Below, piece by piece: positions 5,974 through 60,915 of a stretch of 64,000 bases of DNA. This DNA is from an uncultured Methylophilaceae bacterium. GTDB lineage: Bacteria > Pseudomonadota > Gammaproteobacteria > Burkholderiales > Methylophilaceae. Numbering within the stretch: position 1 is the first letter of the stretch; each line of letters begins with the position of its first letter. The position numbers were made by a program, and so were the translations under genes. Location: the NCBI GenBank assembly GCA_905182075.1, contig CAJIZS010000001.1, positions 620,001-684,000 on the forward strand. The letters are read 5' to 3'. A model generated the notes under the pieces. That model saw only the letters and a list, made by a program, of their open reading frames with translations. It did not search any database and was not told where the DNA came from.

Positions 5974-6150
5974 GAATTTATTGTCAATATTTTATGCAGC
6001 AAAATTATATTGGTTTATTCGACAACTAAAAGTTTTGATAAAAAATTCTTTGCTCATAAATTAATTTTTTTTAAAGTCAGTAATTATAGCTTTTTTTGAA
6101 GAAATCTATTAAATATGTATATATGTAGATTATTAGAGTAACATTTTATT
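5974..6150. promoter_or_regulatory. Divergent promoter region phoH / cysG
   Basis: 177 bp, very AT-rich, separating the two divergent genes. It must hold both promoters, but I could not assign a convincing -35/-10 pair or an operator by eye. Confidence 0.4.
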
Positions 6151-7517
6151 ATGGAAAATTTCCCAATATTTTTAAATCTTAAGAAAAAATCAGTATTGGT
6201 AATTGGGGGTGGAGATATTGCACTTCGTAAGGTAAAGCTACTGATTAAAGTTAAACCAGAAATAAAAATTATCGCAAAACAATTTTGTGAGGAGCTTGAG
6301 TGTTTAGCTAAGTCTAATTCAATTAAATTAATTAAAAAAAGTTTTGTTGAGGCTGATGTTGATAATCCCATGATTATAATTGCAGCTACAAATGATATTA
6401 AATTAAATAAAAAACTTTCTTTATTAGCAAAGAAAAAAAATATTTTAATAAATGTTGTTGATCAACCAAGCTTATGTACTTTTACAATGGGCTCTATTAT
6501 CGAAAGAGATTCTTTAGTAATCGCAATTTCTAGTGCTGGCAAGGCTCCTGTTTTAGCAAGAAAAATTAGGGAAAAAATTGTTCTAATTGAGCCCATTCTC
6601 CTCTGTTTAAATCGTCAATTTGCATAGCACAATTGATAAAAGAAAAAATAAAACTAGTCAGTAAGAGAAGGTTTTTTTGGGAACAGTTCTTTGAAAGTCT
6701 ATATTTATCTGATATAGTTAAGTTTGGAATAATATTTGATAATAAATTAATTAAAAAGTTAATAAAAGAATCTAATCTTAAGTTAGGAGAGGTTTATCTA
6801 GTAGGTGCGGGCCCTGGAGAAAGAGATTTATTAACACTTCGAGCTCTTCAGTTAATGCAAAAGTGCGATCTCTGTATCTATGATAATTTAGTTTCCAGTG
6901 AAGTGCTTGAGTTAGTTAGAAGGGATGCAGATTTAATCTATGCAGGCAAAAAGTTAGACCAGCACACCCTCAGTCAACAAGAAATAAATAAATTATTAAT
7001 AAAATATGCGAAGAAAGGCAAGAAAGTTTTGCGCTTAAAAGGCGGTGATCCTTTTATTTTTGGAAGAGGCGGAGAGGAAATTGAATGCCTAATGAAGGAG
7101 AAAATTAATTTCCAAGTAGTGCCAGGAATTACAGCAGCAAATGGTATTTCAGCCTACGCAGGCATACCATTAACACATAGAGATTTTGCACAAAGTTGTT
7201 TATTTCTAACGGGTCACTTTAAGGAAGGAAAGATTGATTTTAATTGGCCTATGTTGGTTTCAGAAAAACAAACTTTAGTTATTTACATGGGCTTATTAAG
7301 TTTAGCTGATTTAACTTTTAACCTTATAAAAAACGGAATGAAGAAAGATACTCCTGTTGCAGTTATTGAGAGTGGGACAACTAGTAAGCAAAAAGTGATT
7401 ATTGGAAAATTAAGCCACATAAGGTCAAAAGTGTCTAGGGCAAACATAAAATCTCCAGCGTTAATTATTGTTGGGGAGGTCGTCAATTTAAGACAAAAAC
7501 TTAATTGGTTTAAGTAA
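6151..7517 (+). CDS. cysG: Siroheme synthase (fused CysG)
   Basis: Two-part enzyme making siroheme from uroporphyrinogen III for sulfite/nitrite reductase. Residues 1-150 are the precorrin-2 dehydrogenase/ferrochelatase part (VLVIGGGDIALRKVKLL Rossmann motif; SSAGKAPVLARKIREKI). The C-terminal half is uroporphyrinogen-III C-methyltransferase with VYLVGAGPGERDLLTLRA, LRLKGGDPFIFGRGGEE, VPGITAANG and PLTHRD. Total about 455 residues, normal for the fusion. One frameshift near 6600-6620 splits the two halves; the linker continues naturally across it. Ends 3 bp from the convergent envZ stop. Confidence 0.95.
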
Positions 7518-13411: not shown

Positions 13412-14140
13412 CTATTTCTTTGAATCTTCTTTTTTGCCATCACTTGAATCTGAAGAGTCTGACTTTGTAGAAGCATTACTCTTCGCCTGCGCTCCTCTGA
13501 ATCATCTGCACTTTGCTGGAGCTTCAGGCGCTGCTCGCATCTTCTATGACTATCTCTTTTGGCTTGTTGATAGTGAACTACAGATAGAGTCATGATCAGG
13601 ACCATGGCTTAGAGCAACACTTTCAACACCCTTAGGCAGTTTAATATCTGAAATGTGGACATTCTGCCCAATTTCAACAGCAGTCATATCAACTTCGATG
13701 TACTCAGGAAGATCTTTAGGCAAACAGAAAATTTCTAGATCAGTCATGGTGTGGGCAATTATGCCGCCGCCAATCTTAACGCCTGCGCAGATATCTTCAT
13801 TGGTAAAGTGCAACGGTACTTTGGTTTGCAGTTTGGTTGATTTGTTGACGCGCAAGAAATCAACGTGCAAAACAATCTGCTTAGCAGGGTGACGCTGCAC
13901 ATCTTTAAGAATCACATCTTCAGATGAGCCATCTATGTTCAAAGACACAATGTGAGAGTAGAACGCTTCATTTTCTAGCGCTTTAACCACGTCTTTGTGA
14001 AGAAGAGTCAATTTGGCGGGATCTTTCTTTCCACCATAGACAATTGCAGGTATTTCTCCGGCCAGACGACGCAGGCGGCGGCTCGCACCTTTCCCTGTGT
14101 CTTCGCGACCTTTCGCATGTAATGTAAAATCAGTAGACAT
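13412..14140 (-). CDS. rplY: Ribosomal protein bL25 (CTC/TL5 form), gammaproteobacterial type
   Basis: 5S rRNA-binding large-subunit protein of the long CTC type, about 240 residues. Features: GKGASRRLRRLAGEIPAIVY, VQRHPAKQIVLHVDFLRV, VPLHFTNEDI, IFCLPKDLPEYIEVDM and a Ser/Lys/Asp-rich tail ending SSDGKKEDSKK. Start: ATG at 14140 with GGAG 8 nt upstream (a TTG at 14152 would contain the ribosome site). Frame changes near 13600, 13515 and 13480. The gene is distinctly GC-richer (near one half) than its neighbours, and HPAK with FTNEDI resembles gammaproteobacterial L25 more than betaproteobacterial L25. Confidence 0.9.
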
Positions 14141-14220
14141 TTTAGTCTCCAAAGTTATGCCATTGCAGACCGCGACCAGACCTGTAATGGAGTTTAAGAG
14201 CCTCTTATGAGGCGGTTATA

Positions 14221-15161
14221 TTAATCAATAAATAACGAGCTTACAGAATCTTCGTGGCTAATTCTTTTTATTGTCTCAGCTAAAATTTTAGCAACTGACA
14301 GCTGCCTTATTTTTTCACAGCCTCGAGCATTTTTTTCAAGCGTAATTGTATCAGTAATTACAATTTCATCAAGCTCAGACAATTGAATTGATTCAATGGC
14401 TTTCCCTGAAAAAATAGGATGCGTGGCGTAGGCAACTACTTTTTTTGCGCCTTGTTTTTTTAATGCAGCTGCGGCTTCACACAAGGTGTTCGCTGTATCA
14501 ACAATATCATCAACAATAATACATGTTCTATTATTTACATCACCAATAATATTCATAACTTCTGATACGTTAGGTTTTGGACGTCTTTTATCGATTATCG
14601 CTAAATCTGACCCCAATATTTTAGCAACCGCACGAGCTCTGACAACACCACCAACATCTGGCGAAACAATAACCATATCCTTATAGTTCTGTTTAATTAA
14701 GTCCTCAAGCAATACTGGCGTTGCATAGATATTATCTACAGGAATATCAAAAAAACCTTGTATTTGATCAGAGTGGAGGTCCATTCGTTAGTAAGTCGGT
14801 CTACACCAACACTTGTCAGCATGGTTGCTAACTTGCAGTTATTGCAACTCTAGTGACAATCGCTGACCAAGTTCTAAAAGCATGGTAAGGATATAGCTGC
14901 TGTAATTCTTGCAGCTGATGACCTTCTTAAGGCATCAACCATTACCATAATTTCCATTAAATTATCATTAGCAGGTGATGAAATTGATTGAATAATAAAA
15001 ACATCTTTACCTCGAACATTCTCTAATAATTCAACCATTGTTTCTCCATCACTAAAACTTCCAACAGAAGCTTTACCTAAGATAAGACTTTTTAGTGGTA
15101 ACTTCTTTTGCAAGATCTTTATCAGCATTACCCCAAGTACCTTCACCTTTTTATTATTCAA
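14221..15161 (-). CDS. prs: Ribose-phosphate pyrophosphokinase
   Basis: Makes PRPP for nucleotide, His and Trp synthesis. Motifs: [80 protein letters not shown] and the PRPP loop [13 protein letters not shown], where family members normally have DTAGTL or DTGGTL. I choose the TTG at 15161: AGAGGA lies 6 nt upstream and the reading then gives [19 protein letters not shown]. Frame changes at about 15130, 15085 and across 14785-14885. A 5-bp hairpin (14200-14213) follows the stop but has no U-run. Confidence 0.93.
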
Positions 15162-31598: not shown

Positions 31599-32876
31599 AT
31601 GCTCATTAAAACTATTTTAATCTCAGCACTAATATTATTTTCAAATATTATTTTTAGAATCAGAATCATTAAAATCAACCTGTTTATAATTATCTATTTT
31701 ATTGAAAATCATGATTTAGCCTTTGCGATACTGCTGGCAATTTGTGTGTATGGATATTTTGCACTGACCAACGAATATTTCGCCACACATCGCACAGGTT
31801 TCTTATGGTTATGGGATCGGGTGGAATTGACGAGGAAGATTTAGCTAATCAGTTTACAGATTTAGGCGCACAATTAAACAGCTCATTCAATCAAGATAAA
31901 AGTGGATTTAGTTTAAGGACCTTATCTGATAAAAAAAACGAAGCTATTGATTTATTAGCATTGGTTCTTCATAAACCAAATTTTGATAAAAAAACCATTG
32001 ACACAAAAAAAGAAAAGATATATTTCAATTAATACAAACAAATGTGATGCCGGCAACAATAGCTTCAAAAGCTTTTATGAAAGCTTTATATGGAGACCAT
32101 CCTTATGGATTATCAAGTTCCAAAAGAAGAACAAACAATTGAAAAAATTATAAAAAAAGATTTAGATAATTTCTATAAAAATAATTATTTATCGAATGAA
32201 TTATCAATTGTAATTGTTGGAGATATTTCTCAAAAAGAAGCTGAGGGTATCGGTCAAAAAATTAGCCTTGGTTTTACTGAGAATAAAATGGTTTCATCAA
32301 TTCCTTTAGTGAGGGATAAAAAAGGTGAAGAGATTAGAATAAACCATCCTGCTAAACAAGCACATTTATACTATGGTGCCCCAATTATTAAAAGAGGAGA
32401 CCCTGATTTTTTAAGCTTATACTTAGGAAATTATATTTTAGGTGGTGGAGGTTTTGTGTCCAGACTTACTCAAGTAATTAGAGAGGACAGAGGACTAGCA
32501 TATAGTGTCTATAGTTACTTTATGCCATACATCGAAGCTGGTCCTTTTCAAATCGGGGTTCAAACAAAAAAAAATCAAGTTAAATGGATATATGAATCTA
32601 ATGAAATCATTGATTGATTTTATTAAAAATGGGCCAACTTCTAGTGAATTAAAAAGGGCAAAAGATTTTATGATTGGTGGATTTCCACTTAAACTTGATA
32701 GCAATAAAAGCATTTTAGAATATGTAAGTATGATGGCCTTTTATAAATATCCATTAGATTATCTTGATACTTTTACAAAGAAAATTGACAAAATAACTGC
32801 TGAAGAAATTAAATCTGCTTTTCAAAGGCGTGTTGATATGAGTAAATTTTCTACAGTTATTGTTGGTAGTGAATAG
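31599..32876 (+). CDS. M16 peptidase-like partner subunit
   Basis: About 425 residues, second member of the M16 pair, without the zinc motif, as usual for this partner. Readable: GSGGIDEEDLANQFTDLGAQ, SGFSLRTLSD, IVIVGDISQKEAEGIG, YYGAPIIKRGDPDF, GGFVSRLTQVIREDRGLAYS, TSSELKRAKDFMIGG. Frame changes near 31680-31830 (the ENHDL region is scrambled), 32030, 32095 and 32600. Starts 30 bp after its partner. Confidence 0.85.
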
Positions 32877-33912: not shown

Positions 33913-34304
33913 ATGAGAATACTTCATACAATGTTGAGAGTTAACGATTGGATATTTTAATTGATTTTTATTCAAATATGTTTATTAATTACCGTCATAA
34001 ACAAAAAGATTATCCAGAGGCTAAGTTTTCTTTAGCTTTTATTGGTTACGGAAATGAGAAAAATGACACTGTTATTGAACTCACTTATAATTGGGATAAA
34101 AAAGAATATAATCAGGGTGATGCCTTTGGCCACATTGCAATTGAGGTTGATGACGCATACCAAGCTTGCGAAGACCTAGAAGCTGGAGGTGCCAAAATCA
34201 TTAGTCCAGCTAAACCTATGAATGCTGGAACTCGAATACTTGCATTTATTGAAGATCCAGATGGATATGTCGTAGAACTTAATGAAAAACTTAACTTAAC
34301 TTAA
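33913..34304 (+). CDS. gloA: Lactoylglutathione lyase (glyoxalase I)
   Basis: Metal-dependent detoxification of methylglyoxal. Starts MRILHTMLRVND (metal His5), then one frameshift near 33948, then LIDFYSNM, FSLAFIGYG, VIELTYNWD (Glu), FGHIAIEVDD (His), EDPDGYVVELNE (Glu). About 130 residues, normal length. Confidence 0.93.
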
Positions 34305-34316
34305 AAAGGGATAAAA

Positions 34317-34480
34317 ATGAGTAATAAACCACAACTATATAAATTTGGTGACATTGAGCACCGTTTACACACTTTAGAGCCAGGACAAAGCTATATCAAG
34401 CCTTTTGTTACTAGTGCAGTTAGTGATACGATGTGCGGCGGTTTGAATTTTTTAAACCAAGTATCTGTGCCATCGGACTA
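34317..34480 (+). pseudogene. Cupin-like protein, 5' end only
   Basis: About 55 codons from ATG with a good upstream AAAAAGGG. LEPGQSYIKPFVTSAVSDTM and CGGLNFL look like the first strands of a small cupin (EutQ-like), but the family call is tentative. The similarity and the AT-rich composition end near 34475-34485, where the sequence changes abruptly to GC-rich dnaJ on the opposite strand. Cut by a junction and not by a natural stop. Confidence 0.45.
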
Positions 34481-35385
34481 TCTGACGGCCTGCTTGGCTG
34501 CCTGAAGGAATCTGTACGCGACCACGGCCACCATCGATGGTCGGCACCTCGATGCTGCCACCCAAGGCTGCGGTGCTCATTGATACAGGGACGCGGCAAA
34601 ACAGGCTTAGGCCATCACGCTCAAACAGTTTATGTTCGGATACTTCGATGAAGATGTATAGATCACCTGATGGTCCGCCACGCATGCCCGCTTCGCCTTC
34701 GCCTGATAGGCGAATACGTGTACCTGTTTCGACTCCAGCAGGGATATTTACAGAAAGTGAGCGGTCTTTCTCGACGCGGCCTGCGCCAGAACAAGACTTG
34801 CATGGGTTGTTAATAATCTGGCCCATGCCGGAGCACGTTGGGCAAGAGCGTTCAACAGTAAAGAACCCTTGCTGAGCACGCACTTTGCCCATGCCAGAAC
34901 ATGTTGAGCATGTAGATGGTTCAGCACCACCTTCAGCACCCGTACCTTCGCACCCGTCACAGGCGAGCGCAGTTGGAACATTGATGGTCTTTTAGCAGCT
35001 TTCTCGAGGGTTAGCTCCATGTTGTACCTTAAGTCAGCACCACGATAAACATTGGACCTATTATTTTGTCTTCCACCGCCGCCAAATATATCACCAAATA
35101 TATCACCAAAAGCATCGCCGCATCACCTGCACCTGCACCTGCACCACCCATACTTTGATCTATGCCAGCATGCCCATACTGATCGTATACAGATTTTTTT
35201 TGTGGGTCAGATAGGATATCGTAAGCTTTTTTGACTTCTTTAAAAGTTTCAGTTGATTCTGGATCACCGTTATTGCGATCGGGGTGATGCTTCATTGCAA
35301 GCTTCTTATAAGCTTTTTTAATTTCAGTATCAGAAGCTTCTCGAGGTAATTTTAAAGTATCGTAGTAATCTTTTTTATCGGCCAT
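34481..35385 (-). CDS. dnaJ: Chaperone DnaJ, mosaic and lacking its C-terminus
   Basis: Hsp40 partner of DnaK. The J domain ([31 protein letters not shown]) is AT-rich like its neighbours. From about 35035 downward the DNA is GC-rich (over half) and encodes the zinc fingers ([20 protein letters not shown]) and client domain ([34 protein letters not shown]) in an alphaproteobacterial style. It stops at SQAGRQ, about 70 residues short, at the junction with the cupin gene. Frame changes lie near 35100, 35040 and in the zinc-finger region. Confidence 0.85.
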
Positions 35386-35397
35386 AGGGTGTTTGGA

Positions 35398-35422
35398 GTA
35401 GAGGAAATTATCTTACCTCTAC
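35398..35422 (-). other. Inverted repeat between dnaK and dnaJ
   Basis: GTAGAGG and CCTCTAC form a perfect 7-bp stem with an 11-base loop in the 54-bp gap. No U-run follows, so it is not a standard terminator; it could moderate dnaJ expression or protect the dnaK mRNA end. Confidence 0.4.
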
Positions 35423-35439
35423 TTTATAATAATTATAAT

Positions 35440-37391
<1,952 letters not shown>

Positions 37392-37411: not shown

Positions 37412-37912
37412 TTATTTTTTTTTCGAAACTGTTACTAGCGCAGGGCGCAGGACCCTATCATTTAACTTATATCCTTTCTGAATAACAGACAGTACTTGGT
37501 TGGCTGTTTTTTCAGATTCCACCATTGCCATTGCTTGATGAAAGTTTGGATCAAATACTTCATCTTGTGGATCGATTGGCTTAATATTAAATTTATCAAA
37601 AATACTTACAAGTTGTTTTAGAGTAAGCTCTACTCCATCCTTATAACTTTCTACTGTGGCAGTCTCTACCTCAATCGCAGCGTCTAAACTATCTTTTACT
37701 AGTAATATTTCTAAGCATATTTTTTCGATTGCATATTTTCTTGTTTTTTCAGTTTCCTCTAAAGATCTTTTACGTGCATTTTCTGCTTCTGCTTTTCCGT
37801 AAAGAACTGCCGCCTCTAGCTCTGCTATTTTTTCATTTTGCAAATTACTTTTTTCAATATCCTTTACGTCAATTTTGGACTTGCTAGTAGATTTAGTATT
37901 TTTTTTAACCAT
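37412..37912 (-). CDS. grpE: Nucleotide exchange factor GrpE
   Basis: 166-residue intact frame. Charged amino part, long coiled coil (ELEAAVLYGKAEAENARKRS), then the beta domain with FDPNFHQAMAMVES and VIQKGYKLNDRVLRPALVTV, the GrpE signature. First gene of grpE-dnaK-dnaJ, downstream of a sigma-32 promoter. Confidence 0.95.
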   Translation of the reverse strand: MVKKNTKSTSKSKIDVKDIEKSNLQNEKIAELEAAVLYGKAEAENARKRSLEETEKTRKYAIEKICLEILLVKDSLDAAIEVETATVESYKDGVELTLKQLVSIFDKFNIKPIDPQDEVFDPNFHQAMAMVESEKTANQVLSVIQKGYKLNDRVLRPALVTVSKKK

Positions 37913-37945
37913 TATGTAAATTATTAATTATTAAGTTAATTTCAT

Positions 37946-37973
37946 ATATGGTGTCGAAATTTTAAATTTCAAG
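37946..37973 (-). promoter_or_regulatory. Sigma-32 (RpoH) promoter for grpE-dnaK-dnaJ
   Basis: Minus strand: CTTGAAA (37973-37967), 13-bp spacer, CACCATAT (37953-37946). The E. coli heat-shock consensus is CTTGAAA, 11-16 bp, CCCCATNT. The -10 end lies 33 bp before the grpE ATG. rpoH itself is in this window. Confidence 0.72.
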
Positions 37974-38093
37974 CTCTAGATTTAATTTTTTTCATTTTAT
38001 TTTAGTTTTATCGTTAGTTAGTATTTCAAGTAGATTTGACTTAACTGTAATTTTTAATTGATAATGGTCAGCTAAACTTAACATTTAAATATT

Positions 38094-39908
38094 ATGAAAC
38101 AATCAATCATTGAAATAACAGAGAGAATAAAAGAGAAAAGCTATAAGACAAGGTCTGAGTATCTTAAGAAGCTTACCGTAATGAAAAATCGTGACCGTGG
38201 CACAGATAGGTTAGGTTGTGCAAATGTGGCTCATGCTATTGCGGCTCTCCCATCAGGTGATAAATTTAAGATAGTAGAGGAAAAAAAACCAAATTTAGCA
38301 GTTGTTACTGCCTACAATGATATGTTGTCAGCTCATAAGCCATATGAAGCTTATCCGCAAATAATAAGAGAAGCGCGCATGTATGGTGCAACAGCGCAAA
38401 TGGCTGGTGGTGTTCCAGCAATGTGTGACGGAGTTACTCAGGGCGAACCTGGTATGGAGTTAAGTCTTTTTTCAAGAGATAATATTGCGATGGGAGCGGC
38501 TATTGGGTTGCATCATACTTTTGATGGCATGTTAATGCTTAGGTATATGCGATAAAATAGTACCTGGATTACTTATTGGGGCATTACACTTTGGCCACCT
38601 TCCTACAGTATTTTCTCCTGCAGGACCCATGTCAACAGGTATTGACAATACATACAAAATCAAAGGTGAGGGAGAAGTATGCTCAAGGACTTAGTGGGGA
38701 GAGAGGAGCTATTAGCTCAGAATCTGCCAGCTTATCATGGTGAAGGAACATGTACATTTTATGGTACAGCAAATAGTAATCAAATGTTAATGGAAGCCAT
38801 GGGGCTTCACGTTCCTGGTGCCGCATTCATTCATCCGCATGAAGGGATAAGAAAAAGTATTACTGAAGAAGCTGTAAGACTAATTATTAATAATATTACG
38901 AAAGAAGAAACTATATCGATTGGCGAGCAAATAGACGAAAAAGTTATAGTTAACGCAATGGTGGCATTACTATCGACAGGTGGCTCAACCAATCACTTGA
39001 TTCACTGGGTTGCAATTGCAAGGGCAGCTGGAATCATTATTGATTGGACCGATTTTAATGATTTAGCTATGGAGGTACCACTTCTTGCAAGTGTATATCC
39101 TAATGGAAAAGCAGATGTTAATGAATTTCAAGAAGCTGGTGGGCCAGCCTTCGTTATAAGGGAATTAATAGGCGCTGGTTGTATGTATCCAGATGCAGTT
39201 ACAGTAAGTCACGGTGGTTTAATTGATTACACAAAAAAACCTGTATTAAAAAACAATGCTATTTATTGGTCTGACTTACCAGAGCAAAGTGGCGATGAAA
39301 CTGTTGTTCGAAAAGCAGATAATCCATTTAGTGAAACCGGAGGTCTGAAATTGTTAAAAGGAAATATTGGAAGGTCTGTTATTAAAATATCAGCAGTTCC
39401 ATTGGAAAAGCATATTATTGAGGCTCCTGCTCTAATTTTCAATAGCCAAGAAGAATTATTAATTGCTTTTGATGAAGGAAAGTTAGATCAAGATTTTATA
39501 GCTGTTGTAAGATTCCAAGGTCCAAAGGCAAATGGAATGCCCGAACTTCATAAATTGACTCCACCACTTTCAGTAATTCAAAGTAAGGGATATAAGGTTG
39601 CAATTGTGACGGACGGCAGAATGAGTGGAGCGTCAGGCAAAATACCAGCAGCCATTCATATGAGTCCCGAGGGTGCAGCTGGGGGGGATATCGCTAAAAT
39701 AAAGGCTGGAGATTTAATTAGAGTTGACGCAACTAATGGTACATTAGATGTATTAATCGATTCTAAAGTTTGGAAAGAAAGAAAAATAGAGGAAATGACT
39801 GACGCTCAAAAATCTCAAAATTCACAAGGTATAGGTAGGGATCTTTTCTCAAGTATGAGGAAAAATGTACTATCTGCAGAAGAGGGTGCAATCACTTGGG
39901 TTGGTTAA
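38094..39908 (+). CDS. edd: 6-phosphogluconate dehydratase
   Basis: Entner-Doudoroff dehydratase, an Fe-S enzyme of the IlvD/Edd family. [33 protein letters not shown] (cluster Cys), [20 protein letters not shown] (cluster Cys), [19 protein letters not shown]. About 605 residues, normal. Frame changes near 38550 and 38670. Starts 181 bp from the divergent grpE gene and is followed by eda. Confidence 0.95.
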
Positions 39909-58724: not shown

Positions 58725-59596
58725 ATGACTAAAATTCATAATCTCCTTAAAAAAAATGAACCAATAGTCATGGGTATATTGAATGTCACTCCAGATTCTT
58801 TTTTTGACGGAGGTAAGTTTAATAATATAGATTCTGCATTAATACATTCTGAAAAAATGATAGCAGAGGGTGCTCATATTATTGACATAGGCGCTGAATC
58901 TTCTAGGCCTGGTGCTGAAGCAATATCAGTAAGTGAGGAGCGACTTAGGCTGGAGCCTATTTTAATTGCATTGAGAAAAGAGTTTTCTATACCAATATCC
59001 ATTGATACTTATAAGCCTGAGATAATGAAAATCGCAATTGATTATGGTGCTGATATGATAAATGATATATTTGCTCTACAAAGGCCAGGCGCGATCGATG
59101 TGGTTTCAAGTTCTGATATACATATATGCTTAATGCATATGCAAGGAGATCCATTAAATATGCAAGAAAAATCCAATTTACAAAGATATTTTTTCTGAAG
59201 TTAATCAATTTTTAAAAAATAGGAAAAGTTCTTTAGACGATGTGGGTTATTAATGATATTATTTATTGATCCTGGTTTTGGTTTTGGTAAAACATTTGCA
59301 GAATATAACAGAATTTATTTAATTCAATTAATAAATTCGAAATGAATGATGTTCCATTGCTGATTGGTTTTTCAAGAAAGTCTATGATAAAAAAAATTGT
59401 AGACGGCAAGAAGGAACTTATTTGTGGACTAGGTTCATATATGGCTGCTAAAGGCATCATTGCTGGAGCAAGAGTTATTAGAACGCATGATGTTAAAGAA
59501 ACAGTCGTTGCTTTAAATAAAGGAAAATCAGAAATGATGCTTGAGGAAAAATTGTTCTACCCCTTGGTTGGTGAGTTTGGATTTTATGAAGGCTAG
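58725..59596 (+). CDS. folP: Dihydropteroate synthase
   Basis: Folate synthesis. [16 protein letters not shown] (pterin loop), [44 protein letters not shown] (Lys), VIRTHDV. Frame changes near 59187, 59245 and 59340. About 290 residues. Seven bp from glmM, the usual partner. Confidence 0.94.
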
Positions 59597-59603
59597 AAAA
59601 AAT

Positions 59604-60915
59604 ATGACAAGGAAATATTTTGGTACAGATGGCATAAGAGGAAAAACTGGAGAGCATCCAATCACATCTGAATTTTTTGTAAAACTTGGATATGCTGCGG
59701 GGATGGTTTTAGCTCAGAATAATAATACGCAAGATAGACCTTCTGTTGTAATCGGGAAAGATACTAGAATATCTGGGTATATTTTAGAATCTGCTCTTGA
59801 AGCAGGCTTTGCTTCTGCAGGCGTAGATGTTTTACTAACAGGTCCTTTGCCAACTCCTGCAATCGCTTATCAAACTCAACTTCTTGGAGCTCAAGCTGGT
59901 GTAGTTATATCAGCTTCACATAATTCTTACGAAGATAATGGAGTTAAGTTTTTTTCAAGTCAAGGAACAAAGCTTTCAGAAAAAATTGAATCGGAGATTG
60001 AGTACTATTTAGAGAAAGAAATAAAGCTTGTCTCTCCGGAGTTACTAGGAAAAGCCAAGAGGCTAGAGAATGCTGCTAGTGAATATATTAATTTTTGTAA
60101 AAAGACTGTTTCAGGTGGATTTTCTCTAAAAGGCTTAAAGATTATTCTGGACTGCGCGCATGGCGCTACATACAATGTAGCACCAAAAATATTTACTGAA
60201 CTTGGCGCAGAAGTTATTACTATTAATAATAAGCCAAACGGTTTAAATATTAATGAGAATGCCGGATCAATTCACCCTGAGAATTTGCAGCAGCGTGTTG
60301 TAGCTGAGGGTGCAGACCTGGGTATTGCTTTTGACGGCGATGGTGATCGACTGGTTATTGTTGATGATACAGAAAAAGCACAGCTTAGTTATGAATCTAT
60401 TATTTTTAATCATGAAGATAGTATTCATTTTGTAGAGGCTCGTAATCAGTATCGTATATTGAGAGGCGATCTAATTAATTAATCACAACATGTTAACTAA
60501 TGATAATTTACAACGTAACTGCTAATATAGATGATAGCATCCACGAAAAATGGTTAGAGTGGATCAAGCAACACATTCCAAAAGTTCTTTCAACAGGCTT
60601 ATTTTTAAAGGCAACGTTTACTATCACTCCTTCATTTTAAAAAAACCTTATATCAAGCATTGCAGGAGCTTCCGCTTTATCCTCAGGTTTTAATGAAAAA
60701 GCCTTTAAAAGAAAAAATTAATTTTAATACGCCAGAAATGAAAGCTTTTATCAATAAGGCAAAAGAAGTTATGAAGGGTAAGGGGCGCCTATGATAGCAA
60801 CTGGATTGCCCCTTTAGGGCCTAATGTAACTGCTTTTGAGGAAGCTTTAGAGAAATATGTAAAAGAAGAAGCTGAAATTATAGTAAAAAAAATTAAAGAA
60901 GAAGCTAAGGGTTAG
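59604..60915 (+). CDS. glmM: Phosphoglucosamine mutase, interior replaced by foreign sequence
   Basis: Makes glucosamine-1-phosphate for the cell wall. Amino 250 residues are perfect: [37 protein letters not shown] (phospho-Ser loop), [14 protein letters not shown] (metal loop). From about 60380 the reading is no longer GlmM until about 60645, where [12 protein letters not shown] and [13 protein letters not shown] are again GlmM. The RxSGTEP phosphate-binding motif expected near 60790 is replaced by an unrelated piece; the tail [16 protein letters not shown] to TAG may be GlmM. As written it cannot encode an active enzyme. Confidence 0.85.
60382..60483 (+). other. TPR-protein tail inside glmM (Bacteroidetes type)
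   Basis: In frame after the GlmM metal loop: [19 protein letters not shown] followed by [10 protein letters not shown] and a stop. This looks like the end of a tetratricopeptide protein of the kind that lies before DUF4286 in flavobacteria. It does not match GlmM. Based on recognition only. Confidence 0.5.
60500..60640 (+). pseudogene. DUF4286 protein, amino half
   Basis: 46 codons: [38 protein letters not shown], then six unmatched residues and TAA. The DUF4286 family is about 100 residues long and, as far as I know, restricted mainly to Bacteroidetes. Its second half is absent and glmM-like sequence resumes immediately after. Confidence 0.68.
60787..60861 (+). other. DegT/DnrJ aminotransferase amino-end snippet inside glmM
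   Basis: About 25 codons: [20 protein letters not shown], the opening motif of sugar aminotransferases of the DegT family (typical [17 protein letters not shown]). It stands where GlmM should have its RxSGTEP region. Short, so the family call is moderate. Confidence 0.45.

Follow-up and report, generated by a model that had tools for sequence, protein, structure and literature searches.

Racon-like polishing works in windows of 500 bp, the trimming of which has been named as giving rise to clipping events (PMC13087279). Another tool uses windows of 400 bp, and chimeric reads are a named source of error in long-read metagenomics (PMC12424758). Here, we describe a locus in a 64,000-nucleotide stretch of a Methylophilaceae assembly (the window) at which the middle of the host dnaJ gene is replaced by that of another bacterium. 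The locus resembles the errors of racon-like polishing in that it forms a patch of about one window (514 bp) with abrupt borders in an error-rich contig. It differs in that the account of clipping events in PMC13087279 concerns windows left too short, not letters of another organism. Among the papers listed in our literature survey, we saw none on patches derived from other classes, judging by titles and the first lines of abstracts.

Two natural sequences also resemble this locus. The dnaJ gene of Ascidiaceihabitans is matched almost letter for letter, but only the middle of that gene is present here, without the ends of the donor dnaJ or the donor dnaK. An alphaproteobacterial gloA-cupin pair, found in the genome G508 and on the Leisingera thetidis plasmid NZ_CP109788.1, is matched in gene order, in close spacing and, for G508, in the sequence of the cupin start. 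Here, however, the cupin gene halts after 54 codons, and gloA is closer to the host gene in its 5' part.

Extent, donor and seating of the block in dnaJ

An earlier sequence-only reading had placed a G+C-rich stretch of alphaproteobacterial type in dnaJ, between 34481 and 35035. In 500-bp steps, the G+C content of the window has a mean of 0.340 (s.d. 0.039) and reaches its maximum, 0.542, in the step beginning at 34501. A plot in 100-bp steps bears out the G+C-rich stretch, with values of 0.50-0.62 at 34500-34999, 0.40-0.47 at 35000-35299 and about 0.2-0.36 at 35300-35799. The ungapped match to donor-type dnaJ runs from 34480 to 34993 on the minus strand (514 bp; G+C 54.5% versus 34% in the window). 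The left edge had therefore been placed correctly to a base, but the right edge had not, as the foreign DNA ends at 34993.

The best DNA match to the block is the dnaJ of Ascidiaceihabitans AH-578-E10 (L031), which is 97.86% identical over 514 bp (34993-34480) without a gap; two other Ascidiaceihabitans sequences, AH-135-O06 (L007) and g1_MAG_00011 (L008), match at 94.9% and 80.4%. Among the best 80 of 573 relatives in a protein scan of genome contigs with 146 block residues, the three top matches were again L031 (99%), L007 (97%) and L008 (95%), all titled Ascidiaceihabitans, and the lower matches were Roseobacter-type, Rhodobacteraceae-type or titled only Alphaproteobacteria. Of the 169 residues encoded by the block, 167 are identical to L031; 88-91 of 168 are identical to five host relatives, the relatives in this comparison belonging to the genus and order of the host itself. 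Residues 1-88 of DnaJ, in contrast, are nearest to two sequences of the host genus, L088 (74/87 identical) and L087 (72/86), the best value among the other sequences being 46/85. In maximum-likelihood trees of 21 rows, these residues join L087 and L088 at 100/100, and the block is placed within Ascidiaceihabitans (99/98 and 97/93). The parts of DnaJ thus do not all descend with the host genus: residues 1-88 belong to the host and the block to Ascidiaceihabitans. Separate trees for the two parts had been named beforehand as the test that could refute the sequence-only reading. They led to different organisms and did not refute it, and its alphaproteobacterial assignment can be narrowed to Ascidiaceihabitans on the protein scan, the DNA match and the block tree.

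The 97.9% match may be to a different strain, so that the presence of the donor in the sample is not proven. The assembly's own dnaK shares only 65% identity with the donor locus, and the window holds no other piece of the retrieved donor-type loci at more than 85% identity, these loci covering little of the donors' genomes. A known plasmid was rejected as the source of the block: six plasmid records were matched, the best at 73.0% over 73% of the query.

When the DnaJ of a relative is compared with the assembly, residues 1-90, 87-139 and 133-300 are matched as three separate pieces. The donor dnaJ ends at 34480, at about residue 300 of the relative's DnaJ, and host DnaJ beyond this residue was not found in the assembly in a search with the relative's protein. 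At 34993, where host dnaJ passes to donor type, ten alignment columns are absent and the frame is lost; the join falls on a short A-rich run common to both sides. With a further frame change near 35120, no single open frame runs from the J domain to the C-terminus.

On both sides of the block the gene order of the relatives is retained. In the relatives G010 and G008, gloA (plus strand) and dnaJ, dnaK and grpE (minus strand) stand end to end behind genes that we take, from their proteins, to encode two M16-type peptidases, RsmD and CoaD, with one extra gene before gloA in G010. The window and a third relative, G004, form a single alignment over 28782-62518. The block ends at 34480 and 34993 correspond to 5097 and 5618 of G010 and to 5823 and 6344 of G004. 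Because 514 bases take the place of 522 in both relatives, the replacement is in register. We rejected a plain insertion, since part of the host sequence is absent and the spacing almost unchanged.

Table 1. Features of the composite locus (positions in the window;., no strand)
Feature	Position	Strand	Basis
5' part of host gloA, carrying a frame break	33913..34149	+	First 65 compared residues nearer to host relatives
gloA, 3' part, probably of the same third source as the cupin gene; switch not sharp	34150..34304	+	Last 45 compared residues
Cupin gene of a third source, first 54 codons, truncated at the dnaJ block	34317..34478	+	89% identity to G508 over residues 1-54
Non-homologous join of donor dnaJ, at about residue 300, to codon 54 of the third-source cupin gene	34479..34480	.	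Matches to G508 and L031 stop there
Foreign block, middle of an Ascidiaceihabitans-type dnaJ (about residues 133-300 of a relative's DnaJ)	34480..34993	-	97.86% over 514 bp to L031; 167/169 residues; position on host DnaJ
5' part of host dnaJ (J domain and Gly-rich stretch); frame changes near 35120	34994..35385	-	Residues 1-88 nearest to L088 and L087

A third source beside the block

At its far end the block abuts a second foreign sequence, the start of a cupin gene (Table 1). The earlier reading had caught the dnaJ part of the foreign stretch, which stands, but overlooked the cupin start and what is probably a foreign 3' part of gloA. Among 385 genomes of the donor's class, the cupin start was found in one, G508, and the match stops at cupin residue 54, where the dnaJ block starts. 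The cupin start on the Leisingera thetidis plasmid is 46% identical, and in both G508 and this plasmid the cupin gene follows directly after gloA. Leisingera thetidis and G508 also share the wider arrangement (L101:1560-4014 and L114:256-2588), a row of three genes (gloA, a small cupin gene, a glutamine-synthetase-like gene) preceded by a ring-hydroxylating-dioxygenase-like gene.

The cupin start was found in none of 20 host relatives, in none of 397 further genomes sampled from the phylum, and in none of 14 Roseobacter-type genomes, the last in a search without a positive control in which some genomes were incomplete. Searches with it gave no viral contig, no phage record and one plasmid record. 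The gloA-cupin DNA had no match among plasmid or phage records, the gloA end had none among viral contigs, and the gloA protein matched 85 plasmid records, all at less than 60% identity. G508 was the sole member returned by a search for its family, and Pfam gave no family for the 56-residue cupin piece.

The change within gloA is less abrupt. Over the first 65 compared residues, 41-44 are identical to host relatives and 29 to alphaproteobacterial gloA. Over the last 45, identities number 28-29 to two alphaproteobacterial gloA and 17-25 to three host relatives, the split point having been set by eye and the marker residues past it being mixed. On these residue counts, gloA probably passes to the third source near 34150, with a soft border, and the third source is probably anchored in this adjoining gene.

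Another mosaic gene and further candidates in the assembly

The assembly comprises 1,107,123 bases in 2 contigs and has a completeness of 47.36%. Judged by the proteins of relatives, the frame changes 35 times over 54.4 kb, about once per 1.6 kb. These changes fall in 27 of the 60 genes that were matched, dnaK, dnaJ and gloA among them, and may be the reason for the 47% completeness. The lack of insertions and deletions in the block was considered as proof of a different read type and rejected, given the rate of about one frame change per 1.6 kb elsewhere.

The window and one 20-kb stretch around rpoBC were scanned for 200-bp bins that are much less like relatives than the relatives are like each other. 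Against G010 and G004, 6 of 322 bins were flagged, four in 34201-35000 and two at 59401-59700; against four relatives, 34301 and 37801-38100 were flagged, and against G006 and G008, 6001, 14001, 31701 and 34301. The bins at 59401-59700, at the end of a folP-like gene, resemble G010 and G004 far less than these two resemble one another, show 40-48% identical residues, and are possibly another patch. At 13881-14260, the start of an L25-like gene, G+C rises to 0.49 and identity to G006 and G008 is about 48%; this stretch may be a patch or may simply have diverged. Two of the three remaining flagged stretches, 6001-6200, 31701-31900 and 37801-38100, are very A+T-rich.

In the rpoBC stretch three bins were flagged, all of them in rpsG (L116:7391-7800; G000:C1, about 165390-165800), which lies outside the window. 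This gene has an open frame of 158 residues. Residues 1-104 are identical at 91 of 104 positions to the S7 protein of PDB 7jil, which we take to be that of Flavobacterium johnsoniae, and at 45 of 100 to G010. Residues 105-158 show the reverse, with 32 of 54 identical to the PDB 7jil S7 and 49 of 54 to G010. With its patch of about 400 bp, rpsG is a second mosaic gene in the assembly, and its donor differs from that of the dnaJ block.

Overwriting, misjoining and transfer

In our view, the block is likely to be a consensus error in a metagenomic assembly that is rich in frameshifts and was probably built from long reads; letters of the host would have been overwritten by foreign reads. During consensus building or polishing, the conserved middle of host dnaJ would have recruited reads of Ascidiaceihabitans, a marine member of the Roseobacter group, and the neighbouring gloA those of a different alphaproteobacterium, and at both genes the recruited letters would have replaced those of the host. 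Were the consensus built in short separate windows (about 500 bp, racon-like), two foreign stretches could come to lie side by side with an arbitrary meeting point, which would here fall inside two unrelated genes, host gene order resuming on both sides. We infer read misrecruitment, a windowed consensus and a mixed-community sample.

Several observations speak for this account rather than for gene transfer. Foreign letters lie in register on a conserved gene, with host order continuing on both sides, and more than one unrelated source occurs in more than one place in the window and the 20-kb stretch scanned (the dnaJ block, the cupin gene and rpsG). The lost frame at 34993, the failure to find host DnaJ beyond residue 300, the donor dnaK that did not accompany the block, and the many frame changes and low completeness of the assembly point the same way. 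The length of 514 bp fits a polishing window but proves nothing. Against overwriting, the switch in gloA is blurred, the best host relative being close behind the alphaproteobacterial sequences (25/45 versus 29/45). In addition, identity between donor and host DNA is only about 60% (about 50-67% with host relatives in 60-bp bins), and read recruitment must therefore have been very loose.

The non-homologous join at 34479/34480 is of the kind that chimeric reads produce, and that at 34993 lies on a short shared run; both would suit a misjoin, in which pieces of three genomes were joined by chimeric reads or by a wrong route through the assembly graph, no correct draft having been overwritten. 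A misjoin would, however, rarely lead the contig back to the host on either side in the right order and at nearly the right spacing, and rpsG likewise returns to the host; we therefore regard a misjoin as unlikely, and less likely than overwriting.

The sequence-only reading had offered overwriting by reads of a community member and intragenic recombination as alternatives, and the first is the better supported. A real transfer would have the host recombine a piece of Ascidiaceihabitans dnaJ into its own dnaJ and acquire a second alphaproteobacterial piece beside it. The replacement within dnaJ is indeed in register and, as would follow from a very recent exchange, the donor-type sequence has hardly changed. 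A block sharing 88-91 of 168 residues with host relatives is, however, a poor substrate for homologous recombination. Gene conversion would leave both tract ends in sequence shared by donor and host; here one end, at 34993, lies in dnaJ and the other abuts the cupin gene. Intragenic recombination is unsupported because the far end is the truncated cupin gene of a third organism, because host dnaJ beyond residue ~300 was not found in the assembly, because the frame breaks at the junction, and because rpsG carries a like patch from another donor. Nor does the join recur elsewhere in the lineage: it is present in none of 30 further genomes of the genus, of which 14 reach at least 90% completeness. 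With one end non-homologous and the product out of frame and lacking the host C-terminus, we consider natural recombination very improbable. The foreign stretch in dnaJ is a true feature of the sequence file and most likely not of the organism.

That a streamlined marine bacterium carries fresh, nearly unaltered pieces of the housekeeping genes dnaJ and rpsG from distant bacteria, each in register, strikes us as barely credible. If it were true, the in-register, out-of-frame patch in dnaJ would capture recombination between classes at a moment when selection has yet to purge it. Otherwise, the main value of the dnaJ case is as a warning for transfer screens. Patches of this kind, lying in conserved genes and nearly identical to a donor that can be named, would mimic recent transfer between classes in automated screens, and they also harm the marker genes on which trees and estimates of completeness rely. 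The case offers a signature by which others like it may be filtered: a few hundred bases replaced in register, a non-homologous junction with a third source, loss of host sequence, and a contig rich in frameshifts.
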